Shown: one piece after another, positions 1-11,961 of the stretch
Layout of the letters: each line of letters starts with the position of its first letter
How positions within the stretch are numbered: position 1 is the first letter of the stretch
Assembly (NCBI GenBank): GCA_016199125.1
Contig: JACQHH010000096.1
Location: 1 to 38,713 of the forward strand
DNA: 38,713 nucleotides
From: Candidatus Lambdaproteobacteria bacterium
GTDB lineage: Bacteria > SAR324 > JACQKK01
Direction: 5' to 3'
The notes under the pieces: generated by a model
Told to the model about the DNA's origin: nothing
The model's database searches: none
Seen by the model: only the letters and a program-made list of their open reading frames with translations
Program-made: the position numbers and the translations under genes

Positions 1-386
1 ACGTCGCTGGCCGGCAGCGCGTCATTGAGCACGATGCGGATCGCAATGCGGTCGATGCGGAACCTGTCCTGTTGCGCGGCCACCGCCTCGCGCGTCGCCG
101 CGCGAAAGCCCGGCAGCTCGGACGCGGGGGGCAGGGCCCCGGGCGGGGCCACCTTCACCGGCGTGGCCTCCACGTCCGCCCGCAGCACGTATCGGCCGCT
201 GGGCACCAGCGCCGCCAGGCGCTCGTCGATCAGGCCCTCGATCTTGGCCCGGTGGCGCTCCACGGAATCCACCAGGCGTCCGCCGCCCTGCTGGCCCCAG
301 GCCGGGAGCAGCGGGAGCAGCAGCAGCGCCGCGGCCAGCAGCGCCGTCGGCGCGAAGCGCAGCGACTTGCGATCGTGTGTGTTCAT
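1..386 (-). CDS. Exported FliF C-terminal-domain-like protein (third paralogue, truncated by window edge)
   Basis: Minus-strand reading from ATG at 384-386: MNTHDRKSLRFAPTALLAAALLLLPLLPAWGQQGGGRLVDSVERHRAKIEGLIDERLAALVPSGRYVLRADVEATPVKVAPPGALPPASELPGFRAATREAVAAQQDRFRIDRIAIRIVLNDALPASD. Signal peptide, then the same 'LPGF ... hydrophobic-beta-strand V/I-L-x-D' pattern seen in the two neighbouring paralogues. Confidence 0.7.
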   Translation of the reverse strand, partial: MNTHDRKSLRFAPTALLAAALLLLPLLPAWGQQGGGRLVDSVERHRAKIEGLIDERLAALVPSGRYVLRADVEATPVKVAPPGALPPASELPGFRAATREAVAAQQDRFRIDRIAIRIVLNDALPASD

Positions 387-430
387 GGGTCTTCTTTGGC
401 TAACCCGTCCCGTGACCACCTCCCGGGTGG

Positions 431-1297
431 CTACTGGACGGCACGGATCTGCGTGATCAGCTCCGATATCTCGGCGTTCTCCGGATCCAGCGAGAGAGCG
501 ATTTCCCAGTACTTCAAGGCCAGGGATTTCCAGTTCATGGTGTAGTAGATCGAGCCCAGCATGATGTAGGCCTGCGCGTTGTCCGGCTTGATGCGAATCG
601 CTTGCAGTATCTGGTCCAAAGCCTTGTGGTAGTCGCCGGCGAAGTAATGCGTGCGGGCGCGCAGCAGGTAGGCCGTGCTCTGGGGCTCCTTGAGCGGTTC
701 GCGCGGCAGCCGGGGACCCAGCTCCGGTTCGGCCACGGCGTCGGGCTTGGGGGCGGCAGCGGCGGCCTCGGGCTGCTCGGACGGCGCAGCCGCGGCGGGC
801 GGCTGGCGCACCAGCACCACCTCCAGCCAGTCCCCCTCGGCGGTGTTGAAGTTGGCCTGGCGCTTCAGGTCGCCCTCCAGCGCGGCGCGGTTCACGCTGG
901 GGTCTTCCTCCACGATGACGAAGATCTGCCGCACGCGGGCAAATTCGGGCACCACCTTGTCGCCCTGGCCGGAGGCATCGATGAAGCTGTTGAAGCCCGG
1001 CAGTTTGACGCGGTCGTCGGCGCCCTTGCTGGCGCGCACGTCGGTGCGCACATAGCCCACGTGGGCGATCACGTCGACCAGCTTGTCGCCCACCAGGTCG
1101 CGCGCCAGCGAGGAGATGCGGTTTTTCAGCAGCTCCTCCTGCGCGCCCGGATTTTGCCCCGGCGGAACCGCGAACTCCGCCCCCCGCGCCCGCGGCACGG
1201 CGAGCAGCGTGGCCAGCGTCAGCAGCAGCGCCGCGCCCAGGGCCGGCAGGCGGCTGCGCGCGAACGGCGCGGCGGCAATCCCTTGCGTGTGGTTCAT
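431..1297 (-). CDS. Exported FliF C-terminal (RBM3)-like domain plus C-terminal TPR protein
   Basis: ATG at 1297 (MNHTQG...) with ATGA overlap to the upstream gene. Signal peptide; FliF-like 'KLPGF...RQIFVIVEED...NFNTAEGDWLEVVLV'; C-terminal TPR 'AYIMLGSIYYTMNWKSLALKYWEIALSLDPENAEI'. Confidence 0.75.
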   Translation of the reverse strand: MNHTQGIAAAPFARSRLPALGAALLLTLATLLAVPRARGAEFAVPPGQNPGAQEELLKNRISSLARDLVGDKLVDVIAHVGYVRTDVRASKGADDRVKLPGFNSFIDASGQGDKVVPEFARVRQIFVIVEEDPSVNRAALEGDLKRQANFNTAEGDWLEVVLVRQPPAAAAPSEQPEAAAAAPKPDAVAEPELGPRLPREPLKEPQSTAYLLRARTHYFAGDYHKALDQILQAIRIKPDNAQAYIMLGSIYYTMNWKSLALKYWEIALSLDPENAEISELITQIRAVQ

Positions 1298-2256
1298 CGT
1301 TCCGTCCTGGTCGCTTGGCGTTCGAGATGGTTGAGCACGCGGTGCAGTTCCTCGTTGCTGGGATCGAACACCACGGCCCGCTTCCACGAGGCCAGCGCGG
1401 CCTCCTGGTTGTTCAGCGTGTAGTAGATGGAGCCCTCCATGCCCAGGAACTGCGCGCGCTCGCGATTGGTGGTGGCGCGCTGGAACCCGTTCTGCACGAT
1501 GCGCAGCGCGTCGGTGTAGCGCCCTTCCTGGAAGGCCACGCGCGCTTCCTCGTCAAAGGACATGCCGCGCTCGGGGGCGCCGGCGGGGGCCTGCACGGCC
1601 ACCTGGGGCTGCATGCCGGGCTGCACCATGGGCGCCTGGGGCTGGGCGGGGCGCAGGGCCTCGGGGAAGCGCTCGCCCAACTGCTCCATCAGCTCCTTCT
1701 CCGGCAGGGTCGAGGGCTGGGTGCCCTTGGGCAGCGCGGGAAAGGTCTCCTTGAGCACGATCACCTGGTCGCCGCGGTTGTTGTCGAAGCGGGCCACGAT
1801 GGGCACGATCTTGCGCGTGAAGCGCTCGTAGTATTCGGGCAGCGTCTCGTCCAGCAGCACCTGCACCACCATGCGCACGAAGGGCGGGGTGGATTCGTCC
1901 ACGTTGGGCGCATCGGGCGAACGCACGAAGATCGGGAAGCCCGGCAGCTTCTGTTTGTTGGCCGCCAGCGCCGGATTTTCCGCCGCGGGCAGGATGTTCT
2001 GGTTCCAGATCACCTTCACCGAGAGCACGTACTGGCTCTGCGAGACGTACTGGGACAGCGCCGCGTTGATGTTGCGCGTGAGGCGCTCCTCGAAGGCCTG
2101 CATGCGCTCGTTGGTGATGCGGTCCAGCAGGTTTTCCGACTGAGCCTGCGCCACCGGACGCCACGGGAGGGACAGCGCGGCCAGCGCGGCCAGCAGCGCC
2201 GCCACGCGCAGCCAGCCCGTGCGGCCCGCGCAAGGATGTGCGGAGTGCCGGGTCAT
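1294..2256 (-). CDS. Exported FliF C-terminal (RBM3)-like domain plus C-terminal TPR protein
   Basis: ATG at 2256 (MTRHSAHP...) overlapping the stop of the upstream gene (ATGA). 'KLPGFPIFVRSPDAPNVDESTPPFVRMVVQVLLDETLPEYYERFTRKIVPIVARFDNNRGDQVIVLKETFP' matches the FliF RBM3 pattern; C-terminal 'GMEGSIYYTLNNQEAALASWKRAVVFDPSNEEL'. Confidence 0.75.
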   Translation of the reverse strand: MTRHSAHPCAGRTGWLRVAALLAALAALSLPWRPVAQAQSENLLDRITNERMQAFEERLTRNINAALSQYVSQSQYVLSVKVIWNQNILPAAENPALAANKQKLPGFPIFVRSPDAPNVDESTPPFVRMVVQVLLDETLPEYYERFTRKIVPIVARFDNNRGDQVIVLKETFPALPKGTQPSTLPEKELMEQLGERFPEALRPAQPQAPMVQPGMQPQVAVQAPAGAPERGMSFDEEARVAFQEGRYTDALRIVQNGFQRATTNRERAQFLGMEGSIYYTLNNQEAALASWKRAVVFDPSNEELHRVLNHLERQATRTER

Positions 2257-2918
2257 TTGCTGGCTCCTGCATTGGGCGCGGTGCCGGCCGCCGGCGGCGT
2301 CGGCGCACCGGGCAGCGGCGGGGGCTTGGCGCTGCCGCGGCTCTTCATGAACTCCTGGAACTGGCGCACCTCTTCGTTCGAGGGATCGGCCGCGAGCACC
2401 TGTTCCCACTCCTCGTTGGCCAGGGAGTAGTTGCCCATGGCGTAGTAGATGGAGCCCTTCATCTCGTGGGCCTTCACGTTGTCCGGCTGCACGAGCAGGA
2501 TCAGGTTCACCTGCCGCAGGGCGCCGTTGTAGTCGCCGTTGAGCATGGCTTCCTGGCCCTTCTCCATGTACTGCGCGATCAGCAGATCCTGGAAGTTGCC
2601 CTGGGCACCGCCCGGAGCGCCCGGCGCCGCGCCCGCGGCGGTCTGGGGCAGCACCTGCTGCACCGAGAGCGGAATCTCGATCTCGTAGTTCTGCTGGTCG
2701 ATGTTCAGCACCACGTTGGCTTCCTCGCCGCGGTAGGTGGTTTTCACGCGCACGACCTGATTGCCCTTGCGGTCCGATTCGGTGACCTGGATCGCCGTCT
2801 CCCCGGCGCGGCTGGAGAGCACCGTGTTCTCCTGGGGCGGCTCTTCCTTGTTCAGCAGCGCACAGGACGCGGCCGCCAGGCTCCAGGCCGCCAGCGCCGG
2901 GACGAGCAGCGCACGCAT
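2253..2918 (-). CDS. TPR-containing lipoprotein
   Basis: ATG at 2918: MRALLVPALAAWSLAAASCALLNKEEPPQ (lipobox AAASC); C-terminal TPR 'KGSIYYAMGNYSLANEEWEQVLAADPSNEEV'. Confidence 0.75.
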   Translation of the reverse strand: MRALLVPALAAWSLAAASCALLNKEEPPQENTVLSSRAGETAIQVTESDRKGNQVVRVKTTYRGEEANVVLNIDQQNYEIEIPLSVQQVLPQTAAGAAPGAPGGAQGNFQDLLIAQYMEKGQEAMLNGDYNGALRQVNLILLVQPDNVKAHEMKGSIYYAMGNYSLANEEWEQVLAADPSNEEVRQFQEFMKSRGSAKPPPLPGAPTPPAAGTAPNAGASK

Positions 2919-2919
2919 G

Positions 2920-3993
2920 CTAGAACCTGTAGCCAAAGCGGATCTCATTGCCTGTTCCTTTCAGAAGGGCCGTGCTGCCTACCACTCCTGTGTCGATATT
3001 GGTTTCCACGAAGTTTAGCACACCGAGCGTGACCACCAACCGGTCGCCCACCACGAATTCCAGTCCCGCCCGGAACAGGTTGCCGTAGTTCAGTTGCGGC
3101 GAGAGCAGCTTGCCCAGTCCCACGTACAGCAGCAGCCGCGAGGTGCTGGAGGGAATCTGCACCACGTCGAAGGCCAGCGTGGGCGAAAGCATGAGCCCGG
3201 TGTCCAGGGTCAGGTGCGGATCGGGGTTGGTCTCGTTGTTGTCCAGGTACACCGCCAGGTCCACCGAGAACGAGAAGCGCCCGGTGAGCTGCACGGATTC
3301 CGATACGCCGACCGCCAGGGCGTTGTGCGTCACGTTCAGCCCGGAGGCCTCGATGGGGAAGTTCAGCTCGCCGAAGGAGAAGGTCAGCGAATCGCGCCGC
3401 GGGGCGCGCCGCCCGGCCAGCTCGTCCACCAGGATGATCGCCCCGGTCTGGGCCTCGACCACCTTGATGTACATGGTCAACTGCCCGCCGTCCTGGAAGA
3501 TGCCGATGTCGATGAAGCCGTCGACGCCCAGCTGCTTGGCCAGCTCGATGCGCGCTTCCTGCGTGGGGATGCCCTTGCGCAGCTTCAGCACGCCGCGCAC
3601 GATCTTGGTTTCCAGCTTCTGGCATTCCTGGCACTGCACCAGCTTGACGGTGGGGTTCTTGTTCAGCAGCTCCGCCAGAATCACCACCTCCGCCTTGCGC
3701 CGGAAGTCGCGGTCGACCTCGGTGCCGAAATAGAGGGAGTTGATGGCCAGCGTGGTGACGCGGTCGGAGATCTTGCCCAGGGAGCGCGCGATCAGCGCCG
3801 CGATCTCCTCGAGCTGGAAGATGCGCTCGTCCTGGCGGATGGAGAGGAACTCCTCCTGATCCGCCGCCTTGCTGTCGGCGGTCTGGGCCTGGGCCGGCCT
3901 GCCGGGCACGGCCGCGAGCAGCACCAGCGCCGCCAGGGCGACCATGAGCGTCGCCGTGCGCCCGGGCGTCGAGCCCCGCGTAAATGCTGACAT
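2920..3993 (-). CDS. Exported FlgO/CsgG-like N-terminal domain with beta-barrel-like C-terminus
   Basis: ATG at 3993 (MSAFTRGSTPGRTATLMVALAALVLLAAVPGRPAQAQ signal peptide); 'DRVTTLAINSLYF...AEVVILAELLNKNPTVKLVQCQ...' CsgG/FlgO-like; alternating hydrophobic strands ending in aromatic 'FGYRF' typical of outer-membrane beta proteins. Confidence 0.6.
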   Translation of the reverse strand: MSAFTRGSTPGRTATLMVALAALVLLAAVPGRPAQAQTADSKAADQEEFLSIRQDERIFQLEEIAALIARSLGKISDRVTTLAINSLYFGTEVDRDFRRKAEVVILAELLNKNPTVKLVQCQECQKLETKIVRGVLKLRKGIPTQEARIELAKQLGVDGFIDIGIFQDGGQLTMYIKVVEAQTGAIILVDELAGRRAPRRDSLTFSFGELNFPIEASGLNVTHNALAVGVSESVQLTGRFSFSVDLAVYLDNNETNPDPHLTLDTGLMLSPTLAFDVVQIPSSTSRLLLYVGLGKLLSPQLNYGNLFRAGLEFVVGDRLVVTLGVLNFVETNIDTGVVGSTALLKGTGNEIRFGYRF

Positions 3994-4057
3994 TGACCCT
4001 CCCTGGTCAATTGCGTTCAAGTCCAAACGACGCCCCTCCTGGGGCATCGAAACAAAA

Positions 4058-4711
4058 CTATTTGAACAAGATGCCGTATTCCTCCAACTTCTTGGGCGGG
4101 TTCTGCAGGATGATCTCCACCCGGCGGTTGGCGCGCCGTGCGGCCTGCAGATCGGCGCCGCGGAGCTGTTCGCCAATGCGGTCCACGTAGTCCACGCGCG
4201 GCCGGTGCGAGGCGAAGGCCGTCACCGAAAGCCGCCCCTCCGGATAGCCCAGCGTGCGCAGGAACGCCGCCACATTCGTGGCGCGCGCGCTGGAGAGCTC
4301 CCAGTTGGAGGGAAAGCGCCTGGAGTGGATGGGAACATCGTCCGTGTGCCCTTCCACGATGATCAGATCGCGCTGGTGCTCCCGCAGATCCTTGATCTTG
4401 GCAAACAGCGGCCGCAGGCGCGAAAACGCGGCCTGCTGCAACTGGTCCTGCCCCGTCTGGAACAGAAAGTCCGAGGGCAGCGTGATCACGCATTCCAGCT
4501 TCGAGTTGCGCAATTCGAAATTCCTGTACGCCTCCCGGTTGGCCTCGAAATATTCCGCGATGCCGTTGCAGTTCTTGGGCGCCACCGACAGCGTCGTCAG
4601 CAGCACGAAGAAGCTGAACAGCAGCGCCATCAGGTCGGCGAAGGTGACCAGCCATTCCTCGCTGGGCTTTTCTTTCTGCTCCTGGTGCGATTGCTGGGCC
4701 GCCCCGATCAT
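4058..4711 (-). CDS. MotB/PomB-like stator protein with OmpA peptidoglycan-binding domain
   Basis: 'EEWLVTFADLMALLFSFFVLLTTLS' matches the MotB/PomB proton/sodium-binding Asp helix; 'VEGHTDDVPI...NWELSSARATNVAAFL...RRVEIIL' OmpA domain. Start overlaps the stop of the MotA-like gene. Confidence 0.92.
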   Translation of the reverse strand: MIGAAQQSHQEQKEKPSEEWLVTFADLMALLFSFFVLLTTLSVAPKNCNGIAEYFEANREAYRNFELRNSKLECVITLPSDFLFQTGQDQLQQAAFSRLRPLFAKIKDLREHQRDLIIVEGHTDDVPIHSRRFPSNWELSSARATNVAAFLRTLGYPEGRLSVTAFASHRPRVDYVDRIGEQLRGADLQAARRANRRVEIILQNPPKKLEEYGILFK

Positions 4712-5673
4712 AGCTTCAGCCCCCCGGCCATCTCGGCGCGGCGCTGGGCCTGGATTTGCAGGCGGCGGCGCTTGGAGAGGTAGATCTGCAGATCCTGCTC
4801 GATCACGTCCGGGCGTTCGCGGCGGTGCAGGTAGATCGTGCCTTCCCGGATCATGTCATACAGGCGGACGTAGCTTTCCTTGTTGCGCGTGAGCTTGGCG
4901 GCCACGGGCAGGAAGATCAACTGCGCCAGCAGCACCCCGTAGAGCGTGGTGATGAGGGCCACCGACATGCCGCCCATCACGTCCACGATGCTCGCGTTTT
5001 CGCCGGCGGCGCGGCCCATCATGAGGATCAGCCCCACCACCGTGCCCAACATGCCGAAGGCCGGGGCCACGCGCCCCATGTACTCCATGACGTTGATTTC
5101 CTGGTCCGCATTGTACGCGTACGACTCGATTTCCGAGTTGATGATCTCGGTGACCATCTCCTCGCTGACCCAGTCAACCTGGATGAAGTTCTCCAGCGCA
5201 TCGCGCAGGAAGTACAGCGGAATGGCCGCGATCTTCTCGTCGGGGATCATCTGCTTGCGGAAGCGCAGCTCCGCGAACTCCACCATGTGCTTGTAGACGG
5301 TCTCGAACTCCCACTCGCTTTTTTCGCGGGCGAACACCATGCCCATGTACACCAGGGTGGCGATGGCCCGCCGGAACGGAAAGGCGATCAGCGTGGCCGC
5401 GTACGAGCCTCCGAAGACGATCAGGAAGGACTTCAGGTCGACGAAGCGCGTGATGCCCGCCTCGAAGGAATTCTTGAAAGCCTCTTCTTCCTTGGCGACC
5501 GCCTCGATCTCGTTGCGTGTGGCGCCCTGCTCCTTGAGCGCCCCGATCGTGTTCTCGTACTGGTTGATCTGGTAGACGTAGTAGTTGGAGAGCTGGTCCG
5601 GCCAGGTGATGCCGAAGACGATCAGCGTGGCGCCGATCAGAAAACCGACCAAAGTTCCGAGACGGTCAATCAT
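4708..5673 (-). CDS. MotA/PomA-like stator protein (MotA/TolQ/ExbB proton-channel family)
   Basis: 'FVDLKSFLIVFGGSYAATLIAFP', 'GRVAPAFGMLGTVVGLILMM', 'GMSVALITTLYGVLLAQLIFLPVAAKL' are canonical MotA/PomA motifs. Confidence 0.92.
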   Translation of the reverse strand: MIDRLGTLVGFLIGATLIVFGITWPDQLSNYYVYQINQYENTIGALKEQGATRNEIEAVAKEEEAFKNSFEAGITRFVDLKSFLIVFGGSYAATLIAFPFRRAIATLVYMGMVFAREKSEWEFETVYKHMVEFAELRFRKQMIPDEKIAAIPLYFLRDALENFIQVDWVSEEMVTEIINSEIESYAYNADQEINVMEYMGRVAPAFGMLGTVVGLILMMGRAAGENASIVDVMGGMSVALITTLYGVLLAQLIFLPVAAKLTRNKESYVRLYDMIREGTIYLHRRERPDVIEQDLQIYLSKRRRLQIQAQRRAEMAGGLKL

Positions 5674-10602: not shown

Positions 10603-11961
10603 ATGGAAAACCAGGCATCCCAACACACGCCCGAGGCCCACGCGCTGAGCGCGCAACTGCCGGAAGATTTCGCCAAGCGCCTGGCGACGAAAATCGTCGT
10701 CACCAACGAGCGCGAGCGCGACCCGGAGAAGGCGGTGCAGGACGTGGCGCGCCTGATCATGCGCAACGTCTCCCAGCCGGGACGCGAGCGCCTGTTCGCG
10801 GATACGGCGGAAATCCTGCTGGAGGGCGAAGAGACCCGCCGCTACGCCGCGATCGGCTGGGTCTCCGTCACGTTGGACCACCAGGGCGAGCCGCGCTACG
10901 AGCAGTTCGTGGGCCGCGTGGTCGATGCACTGATCTTCGACCACACGAATATCGTGCGCCCGCCCGTGGAACTGGATCGCCGCCGGCGCTTTTCCTTCTA
11001 CGCCGGGTATCTGGGCCGCGTGTTCATCGCCATGATGGACATCAACAGCGAGCTGTACGAGGTGGTGAACCTGATCTATTCGCGCATCATCCGCCGCGAA
11101 ATGGAGCTGGAGAACCAGCGCAGCGAAGAAGCCACCAGCAGCGCCCGCCGCATCATCATGACCCAGCAGCAGAAGGGCCCCACGGCGGCCAAGAAACTCT
11201 ACGACGAGATCGTGGACTACATCCACGCCCGCGGCGAGTTCAAGTCCGAGTCGCTGAACCAGCAGAACCCCAACGAGTTCATGGCCATCCTGGCCGACCG
11301 CATGCGCGCCACGCGCCGCTACGTGATCCAGGACATCATGAACCGCCAGGCCCTGTCCCGTAAGAAGGAAGCGGAGAAGGAGCTCAGCGAGCGCTTGGCC
11401 GCCGCCGAGGACATCATCCTGGCGCGCGACACGTTCAAGAAGGCGCTGAACCTGTTCTGGACGGAGAAGCGCTACAACTTCAAGTTCCTGGCCGTGGAGA
11501 AGGTGCGTGTGACCCTACAGGTCTCGGCCATCCTGGTGGGCATCGTACACTTCCTGGTGGGCTACCTGGGCCTCTACGGCATGCTGTGGTGGGAGGGGCT
11601 GGCCGTGGCGCTGATCATGTACGTCTTCGCCCGCATCTTCTGCTCGCGGCATGCCTTCCAGCGCTTCTTTCCCAGCGACGTGAGCAAGGAGCTGGAAGTG
11701 GTGGTGGGCTCGGTCACGCCCACGCTGCGCAAGATGTCCAAGGGGCAGATGGACGCGTTCCTGATCCGGCAGGTGAAGGACCCGGCCAATCTGAACCTGC
11801 TGTTCATCATGCCGGAATTCATGAAGTACGTGTTTGCCGTGATGCCCGAGCGGCACAACACCATCGTCACCACCGACGAGCTGTCCGACCTGATGGAGAC
11901 CATGGAGCTGGACATCGCGCGCACCCTGCGCGCCGCGGCGCCTCCCCCGCCGCCCATCTAG
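10603..11961 (+). CDS. Uncharacterised helical membrane protein
   Basis: 452-aa ORF, charged helical N-terminal 290 aa, one or two TM helices (VRVTLQVSAILVGIVHFLVGYLGLYGMLWWEGLAVALIMYVFARIFC), soluble C-terminus ending PPPPPI. No family recognised. Confidence 0.8.
   Translation: MENQASQHTPEAHALSAQLPEDFAKRLATKIVVTNERERDPEKAVQDVARLIMRNVSQPGRERLFADTAEILLEGEETRRYAAIGWVSVTLDHQGEPRYEQFVGRVVDALIFDHTNIVRPPVELDRRRRFSFYAGYLGRVFIAMMDINSELYEVVNLIYSRIIRREMELENQRSEEATSSARRIIMTQQQKGPTAAKKLYDEIVDYIHARGEFKSESLNQQNPNEFMAILADRMRATRRYVIQDIMNRQALSRKKEAEKELSERLAAAEDIILARDTFKKALNLFWTEKRYNFKFLAVEKVRVTLQVSAILVGIVHFLVGYLGLYGMLWWEGLAVALIMYVFARIFCSRHAFQRFFPSDVSKELEVVVGSVTPTLRKMSKGQMDAFLIRQVKDPANLNLLFIMPEFMKYVFAVMPERHNTIVTTDELSDLMETMELDIARTLRAAAPPPPPI

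Follow-up and report, generated by a model that had tools for sequence, protein, structure and literature searches.

A stator–rotor operon in SAR324 bacteria as a candidate flagellum-independent envelope motor

What might a MotAB-like stator drive when the genes beside it are not those of a flagellum? The question is raised by a 38,713-nucleotide stretch of DNA from a Candidatus Lambdaproteobacteria bacterium of SAR324 (GenBank assembly GCA_016199125.1, contig JACQHH010000096.1), analyzed here at its full length and called the window. The window is contig C54 of a 238-contig, 2.98-Mb genome that is 73.5% complete, and at its left end seven closely packed minus-strand genes run from 5673 to 1, transcribed with MotA and MotB first. 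The original prediction for this DNA saw in them an energized envelope machine that combines a stator with FliF-like ring proteins, an idea that our results support. We consider it likely that the operon encodes a stand-alone, flagellum-independent, ion-driven envelope motor derived from the flagellar torque-generating core; on our best reading, it would be built without a flagellar export apparatus, rod, hook, or filament. To our knowledge, the flagellum has been almost the only setting considered for FliG and FliF, apart from the oddity of a partial fusion in Chlamydia.

The six complete genes and the one partial gene were confirmed, with their junctions, exactly where they had been predicted. 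Three junctions are ATGA overlaps (4708-4711, 2253-2256, and 1294-1297), and only a few bases separate the P3 stop codon (2920-2922) from the P4 ATG (2918). The window truncates the operon within its seventh gene, P7. Extension of the contig to the left, which the original prediction had proposed, supplied the rest of P7 and then an eighth gene, P8. Because the start of contig C235 of the same genome overlaps the end of the window contig by 18 bp, exactly and with a continuous reading frame, the partial last gene continues on C235, where the P7 profile matches locus L048 at positions 118-603. In transcription order, the genes are as follows (aa, amino acids; TM, transmembrane segment; TPR, tetratricopeptide repeat; RBM, ring-building motif; AF2, AlphaFold2).

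4708..5673, minus strand: motA-like gene, 321 aa, MotA/PomA-type stator subunit (Pfam MotA_ExbB, 8.6e-25)
4058..4711, minus strand: motB-like gene, 217 aa, TM/plug and OmpA-type peptidoglycan-binding domain (MotB_plug, 1.5e-12; OmpA, 1.4e-13)
2920..3993, minus strand: P3, 357 aa from its ATG, predicted to be exported, LpoB/CsgG/PelC-like alpha/beta domain and probable small barrel (Foldseek on AF2 model)
2253..2918, minus strand: P4, TPR lipoprotein with lipobox LAAASC (Pfam TPR_2, 1.5e-7)
1294..2256, minus strand: P5, 320 aa, predicted to be exported, RBM3-like domain and TPR tail (TPR_11, 7.1e-7; hhalign)
431..1297, minus strand: P6, 288 aa, predicted to be exported, RBM3-like domain and TPR tail, paralogue of P5 (TPR_2, 7.8e-11; hhalign)
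3..386, minus strand: 5' part of P7, signal peptide and most of an RBM3-like domain (profile; contig-end overlap)
Contig C235, L048 2-1420: rest of P7 (TM, coil, FliG_M, and FliG_C)
Contig C235, L048 1389-2645: P8, weakly PorV-like outer-membrane protein, after P7

The argument turns on P7. Its intact homologue in another SAR324 locus (L006) is a single 592-aa protein (P0008), and the intact layout runs from a signal peptide through a FliF-RBM3-like domain and one TM to FliG_M and FliG_C. The homologue matched Pfam FliG_C (2.8e-14) and FliG_M (2.2e-9), the Thermotoga maritima FliG structure (PDB 1lkv; 8.8e-14), and the TIGR00207 fliG model (1.3e-18, below the equivalog cut-off of 226.7 bits). 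Profile-profile comparison of P7 with FliG by hhalign gave 99% and 6e-18. Because P7 ends in FliG_M and FliG_C, the operon encodes a rotor protein as well as a stator. The N-terminal part of P7 is periplasmic, judging by its signal peptide and the position of the TM; FliF TM1, RBM1, and RBM2 are absent from P7, which has only the signal peptide, the RBM3-like domain, and one TM. The FliM-binding EHPQ motif, present in every canonical FliG aligned, is replaced in P7 by E-P-x-K-I-K-A (EP(V/A/S)KIKA) or close variants. This loss suggests that the motor has no FliM and thus no CheY-type switch.

A relation of the exported proteins to FliF RBM3, which had been claimed for this operon, was borne out by profile and fold comparison. 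By hhalign, P5 matched the FliF RBM3 region at 80% (E, 1.5e-5), with the controls P4, P3, and FliG below 2%, and the P7 N terminus matched it at 61%. The profiles of P5, P6, and P7 matched one another at 97-99% (P5-P6, 99.4%; P6-P7 N terminus, 96.6%); the P3-FliF profile match failed. Pfam YscJ_FliF_C weakly matched the P5-type gene in four genomes of the SAR324 family f2. In the distant homologue at locus L113, which adjoins MotAB, YscJ_FliF_C scored above the cut-off (29.7 versus 23.8 bits) in one protein with FliG_M, FliG_C, and TPRs, and the L113 and L114 N termini matched FliF from RBM3 through TM2 (96.6%; E, 6.6e-10). The AF2 models, made from two-sequence alignments, were poor (mean predicted local distance difference test scores of 47 and 49), so their fold matches are supportive only. 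In the P7 model, the order helix-strand-(insert)-strand-helix-strand is that of the split RBM, described for RBM3 in PMC4768692, and FliF S-ring chains, SpoIIIAG (5wc3, prob 0.87), and FliG ranked first in Foldseek, with no E value below 0.001.

The Pfam matches listed above also substantiate the MotA/MotB-like stator and the TPRs in P4, P5, and P6 that had been read from this DNA. The stator scored between 1e-38 and 1e-30 with the NCBIfam MotP/PomA/MotA models, all below the equivalog cut-offs, and lay well below those cut-offs with the MotD/MotB models; it is therefore a divergent stator. Alignments show ~45 extra residues between TM1 and TM2 of MotA, kept in all orthologues and missing from flagellar MotAs of the same phylum; the residues corresponding to R90 and E98, the torque residues of E. 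coli MotA, are retained. By sequence, MotB has the ion-binding Asp (in TFADLM) and the peptidoglycan-binding motif NWELSSARA. Presumably the TM motifs GTxxGL, TTLYG, and TFADLM place the pair closer to sodium-type stators. Elsewhere in the same genome, another MotA adjoins fliP and is followed by two tandem MotB-like genes (L050 16660-18905, G000:C80).

The gene arrangement is not due to chance, because gene order was conserved across SAR324 genera and families in the neighborhood survey that the original prediction had called for. Family f1 shows the order MotA-MotB-P3-P4-P5-P6-P7(-P8), and f3 the same order minus P8. Genomes of f2 have kept the P3-P7 block whole, with MotAB either behind P7 (G012) or located elsewhere. 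P4 is a separate gene in f1 and f3, and most f2 genomes probably carry it fused to P5, as judged from the match of the P4 profile to their P5-type gene. Across 52 SAR324 genomes, the MotA/P7 co-occurrence counts were 25/4/2/21 (P = 1.9e-8, uncorrected for kinship), and by genus they were 13/1/0/12. For f2 alone, in which MotA and P7 are mostly unlinked, the counts were 15/3/2/11 (P = 2.6e-4, likewise uncorrected).

How, then, does the operon stand to flagella? Flagella have already been published for the SAR324 phylum (PMC9031357). FliP, FliF, and canonical FliG are present in most SAR324 genomes, and the window's genome has all three, with the fliP-adjoining MotA, on other contigs. Because most SAR324 genomes thus encode an ordinary flagellum elsewhere, the operon is additional to it. 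The P7 orthologue is missing from 19 FliP-positive SAR324 genomes, including G004 (97% complete), G014 (99%), and G042 (98%); a few of the 19 have divergent P7-like genes (G032, G041, and G043) or operon fragments (G003 and G006). Outside SAR324, P7-like genes were read in 8 of ~330 genomes of other phyla. Searches for FliP, FlhA, and FliM/N, each positive in the E. coli, B. subtilis, Caulobacter, and Thermotoga controls, found none of them in four of the eight: G094, G259, G264 (95-96% complete), and G132 (86%). All four have MotB_plug genes. The MotA, MotB, and RBM-FliG genes are adjacent in G259, G264, and G132; in G094, P7 is present and MotB lies on another contig. At the level of sequence comparison, both the gene architecture and its separability from flagella are established.

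The RBM-TM part and FliG are two neighboring genes in G132, G105, and G379, an unfused form of P7. At loci of this split form in other phyla (L110, L112, and L116), the order is MotA, MotB, RBM-TM protein, and separate FliG, and TPR/lipoprotein genes precede MotA in L110 and L112. We do not claim that the whole operon extends beyond SAR324; the shared part appears to be MotAB plus RBM-FliG, as one gene or two.

An unrooted tree of the FliG M/C region was built from 58 rows; it omits three deep FliG-like rows from type II loci, and one did not qualify. The P7 sequences, with one long-branch relative, were split from canonical FliG with starred support; the L109, L111, and split FliGs likewise lay outside the flagellar group; L113, L114, and L115 were long branches whose placement is unsure. 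Because P7 is split off while the SAR324 flagellar FliGs group with those of other phyla, P7 is not a recent duplicate of the phylum's flagellar FliG. This placement speaks against the operon being what is left of a degraded flagellar or type III system, as do the intact operons long conserved over three families and the addition of TPR and outer-membrane genes. Even though the operon's parts are homologous to flagellar parts and Chlamydia has a reduced FliF-FliG fusion (PMC4768692), we regard such decay as very improbable.

Several observations weigh against a flagellum-independent, rotating motor. Within SAR324, FliP is found in 26 of the 27 P7-bearing genomes and FliF in nearly all of them, the g11 P3-P7 cluster lies ~6 kb from fliP, and several f2 genomes have a flagellin gene close to MotAB; there is room here for a link to the flagellum. 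Absences are called on metagenome-assembled genomes. In other phyla, the outer-membrane genes are not homologous to P3 or P8; the outer-membrane parts thus differ between SAR324 and these phyla, and so may the output. The direct profile match of P6 with FliF failed (3.9% by hhalign), and its RBM assignment is indirect. Finally, the FliG torque helix has lost its acidic pair (E. coli D288/D289) in 16 of 16 P7 sequences, where EDLE has become SSLK/TALR and the residues at the pair are uncharged; torque transfer through the classical contacts is therefore not assured.

The SAR324 observations would suit an accessory module of the SAR324 flagellum, that is, an extra stator with periplasmic scaffold rings, likened to the H/T rings or disks of Vibrio and Campylobacter, and with P7 as an additional FliG ring round the basal body. 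The LpoB/CsgG-like outer-membrane protein, which recalls FlgO/FlgT, would fit as well. We nevertheless consider such a module unlikely: 19 FliP-positive relatives lack P7, several of them more than 90% complete, canonical FliF and FliG and another MotA are already present, homologues of the core occur in genomes without detectable FliP, FlhA, or FliM/N, and EHPQ is lost. The missing torque-helix acids, together with the known ability of both RBM and FliG modules to build rings, could instead point to a static or sensing scaffold in which the FliG domain serves for oligomerization and the stator leaks ions or senses load without rotation. We judge this scaffold improbable, because MotA retains its R90 and E98 equivalents, the split FliGs of L110 and L112 retain acidic residues at the helix, and MotAB and P7 have been kept together across genera.

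Under the motor reading, which we favor, a mechanism can be proposed. In flagella, the MotA5B2 unit rotates with ion flow and drives the FliG ring (reviewed in PMC9389320). Here, MotB would anchor the MotA5B2 unit to peptidoglycan, ion flow would rotate MotA, and the cytoplasmic lobes of MotA would push a ring of P7 FliG domains. The TM of P7 itself would carry the rotation through the inner membrane into an RBM3 ring, from which P5/P6 RBM-TPR rings and P4 would relay torque to the outer-membrane proteins P3 and P8 and so move or energize something at the cell surface. Docking of the stator to the periplasmic rings may be the role of the insertion between TM1 and TM2 of MotA.

We infer rotation and its output from this set of parts. 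For the output, gliding-type surface motility is our first guess and the most likely one; powered transport, export, or assembly of surface proteins comes second. A 2016 SAR324 paper reported abundant flagellar motor proteins and suggested gliding, and it did not describe this operon (PMC4782131).

The outer-membrane parts bear on this choice. P3 has no Pfam match. The low-confidence AF2 model of P3 matched the LpoB C domain (Foldseek E, 2.9e-6; prob, 1.00) and GNA1162 and PelC (both prob 1.00), as well as PagL/OmpA outer-membrane barrels, and the protein has a terminal Phe; P3 thus probably ends in a small outer-membrane beta-barrel, which makes the earlier description of a FlgO/CsgG-like protein with a barrel reasonable. 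A P8 homologue matched PorV_fam at 9.5e-6, below the cut-off. The resemblance of P3 to LpoB/PelC/CsgG-type proteins and the weak PorV likeness of P8 would be in keeping with the same motor powering protein or polysaccharide export or outer-membrane assembly, as GldL/GldM power type IX secretion. So would the partner at L113, a UPF0164/PorV protein with TPRs, and the type IX secretion protein SprA in carriers G105 and G379, where the motor could serve the SprA translocon. We treat export as a possible but doubtful output, given that the SprA/Sov translocon was not found in the five SAR324 genomes tested (G000, G005, G008, G012, and G046) nor SprA in G094, G132, and G239, that no mutual match was found between SAR324 P8 and the other PorV-like proteins, and that no cargo signal was identified.

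Beyond this operon, we lean towards a widespread, undescribed motor class in several phyla, in which MotAB would drive a membrane-anchored RBM3-FliG ring that moves or energizes outer-membrane machinery. It would exist in SAR324 as several paralogous versions and elsewhere include bacteria without flagella, though we hold this wider claim with only slightly better than even confidence.

Related clusters were also seen. A paralogous operon in f2 (L101 5169-9321, L103 9121-13266, L105 8200-12409, and L108 6575-10729) has a membrane protein of 543-573 aa with FliG_M-like similarity to P7, followed by a second MotA (~41% identical to that of the window), a MotB of ~520 aa, an uncharacterized gene, and a possible FecR-like gene. 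A third stator-FliG cluster, in f1 (G000:C34; L047 2843-4489, L060 2066-5653, and L061 8872-12019), has a long ExbB/MotA-like protein (525-566 aa), a small MotB-like protein, and a FliG-like protein that groups within the flagellar FliGs in the tree. On G032:C11 (L104 3151-17888), a divergent P3, P7-like, MotA, and MotB set lies just upstream of contractile-injection-system-like genes, with a tail-sheath-like protein at 11684. Deeply divergent P7-like genes lie beside phosphate-transport genes at L106 7360-9153 (G043) and L107 8641-10461 (G041), with no MotAB seen within either stretch. Flagellin-like genes (L032 286-1914, L034 18215-19825, and L053 2469-4154) lie a few kilobases from orphan MotAB in f2 or ~10 kb from the P3-P7 cluster (G012).

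Around the operon itself, both flanks were annotated and no flagellar genes were found on either side. The earlier statement that no flagellar genes are visible thus holds for the neighborhood and fails for the genome, which has FliP, FliF, and FliG elsewhere. To the left, P7 and P8 are followed on C235 by GroEL and MutM, identified by sequence, which led us to drop the idea that the operon merely forms the left end of a cluster for a flagellum. Neither outcome that the original prediction had named as refuting it, a standard flagellar operon immediately to the left or no relation of the proteins to RBM folds, was seen. To the right, citrate synthase comes first, on the other strand, with DapF and Lnt beyond. 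The other window genes recognized by Pfam (DapF, Lnt, enoyl-CoA hydratase, shikimate kinase, acyl-CoA dehydrogenase, DnaJ, and glutamine amidotransferase) are metabolic or general and none is flagellar; 10 of the 20 open reading frames scanned to the right of the operon had no Pfam match at 1e-5. The defense (PADLOC) and phage (PHROGs) libraries gave only stator and TPR cross-matches, and a plasmid search returned only flagellar FliGs or an unannotated FliG-like match.

No published description of the operon was found in the open-licence literature, and a prior description elsewhere is possible. A 2025 stator phylogeny (PMC12505986) mentions neither SAR324, FliF, nor a FliG fusion, apart from one sentence on FliG. 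If our reading is right, the flagellum, Agl-Glt, GldLM, Tol/Exb, and Zorya would be joined by a further, new type of ion-driven machine. Such a machine would make testable how other bacteria move or energize the outer membrane and whether a rotor-stator core existed, or can exist, without a secretion system. Because the P7 FliG lineage lies apart from flagellar FliG, the motor may bear on the origin of the flagellar motor, for which the unrooted tree gives no order.

How does the operon compare with known systems? Zorya has a MotA/MotB-like pair, ZorAB, and the ZorB profile matched the window's MotB at 1.3e-18. However, the operon's MotA is short (321 aa) and lacks the ZorA tail, and its partners are envelope genes; no ZorC/ZorD-like genes were recognized, with PADLOC giving only ZorA/ZorB cross-matches to the stator and the other operon genes covered by Pfam and in part by PADLOC. 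SpoIIIAG and secretin-type RBM rings share the RBM3-like fold; SpoIIIAG has neither a FliG part nor a MotAB partner. TPR proteins are also part of the Myxococcus Agl-Glt machinery. Its AglRQS stator, a motor related to MotAB, is linked to proteins of the periplasm and the outer membrane, yet that motor is described as moving, possibly along an MreB track, and no FliG appears in the review (PMC9120999); Agl-Glt also pairs MotA with two MotB-like subunits, whereas the operon has one MotB and a FliG protein. Type IX secretion resembles the proposed motor in an ion-driven 5:2-type motor, periplasmic rings, and possibly a PorV-type outer-membrane protein but uses GldL/GldM in place of MotA/MotB and has no FliG (PMC8986121). 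The natural FliF-FliG fusion of Chlamydia, bacteria not thought to be flagellated, is the nearest precedent for P7, although it is built differently (PMC4768692). With the flagellar motor, the operon shares the MotA/MotB stator, and the P7 order of RBM3, TM, FliG_M, and FliG_C mirrors FliF RBM3-TM2-FliG. It differs in that P7 joins RBM and FliG in one chain, without FliF RBM1, RBM2, and TM1 and without EHPQ and the torque-helix acids, and in that the operon has no export gate, FliM/N, rod, hook, or filament. Because there is no full FliF, no EHPQ, and no linked export or C-ring genes, membership in the flagellum fails on its defining features; the best reading is that the operon's product works like the core of a flagellar motor.

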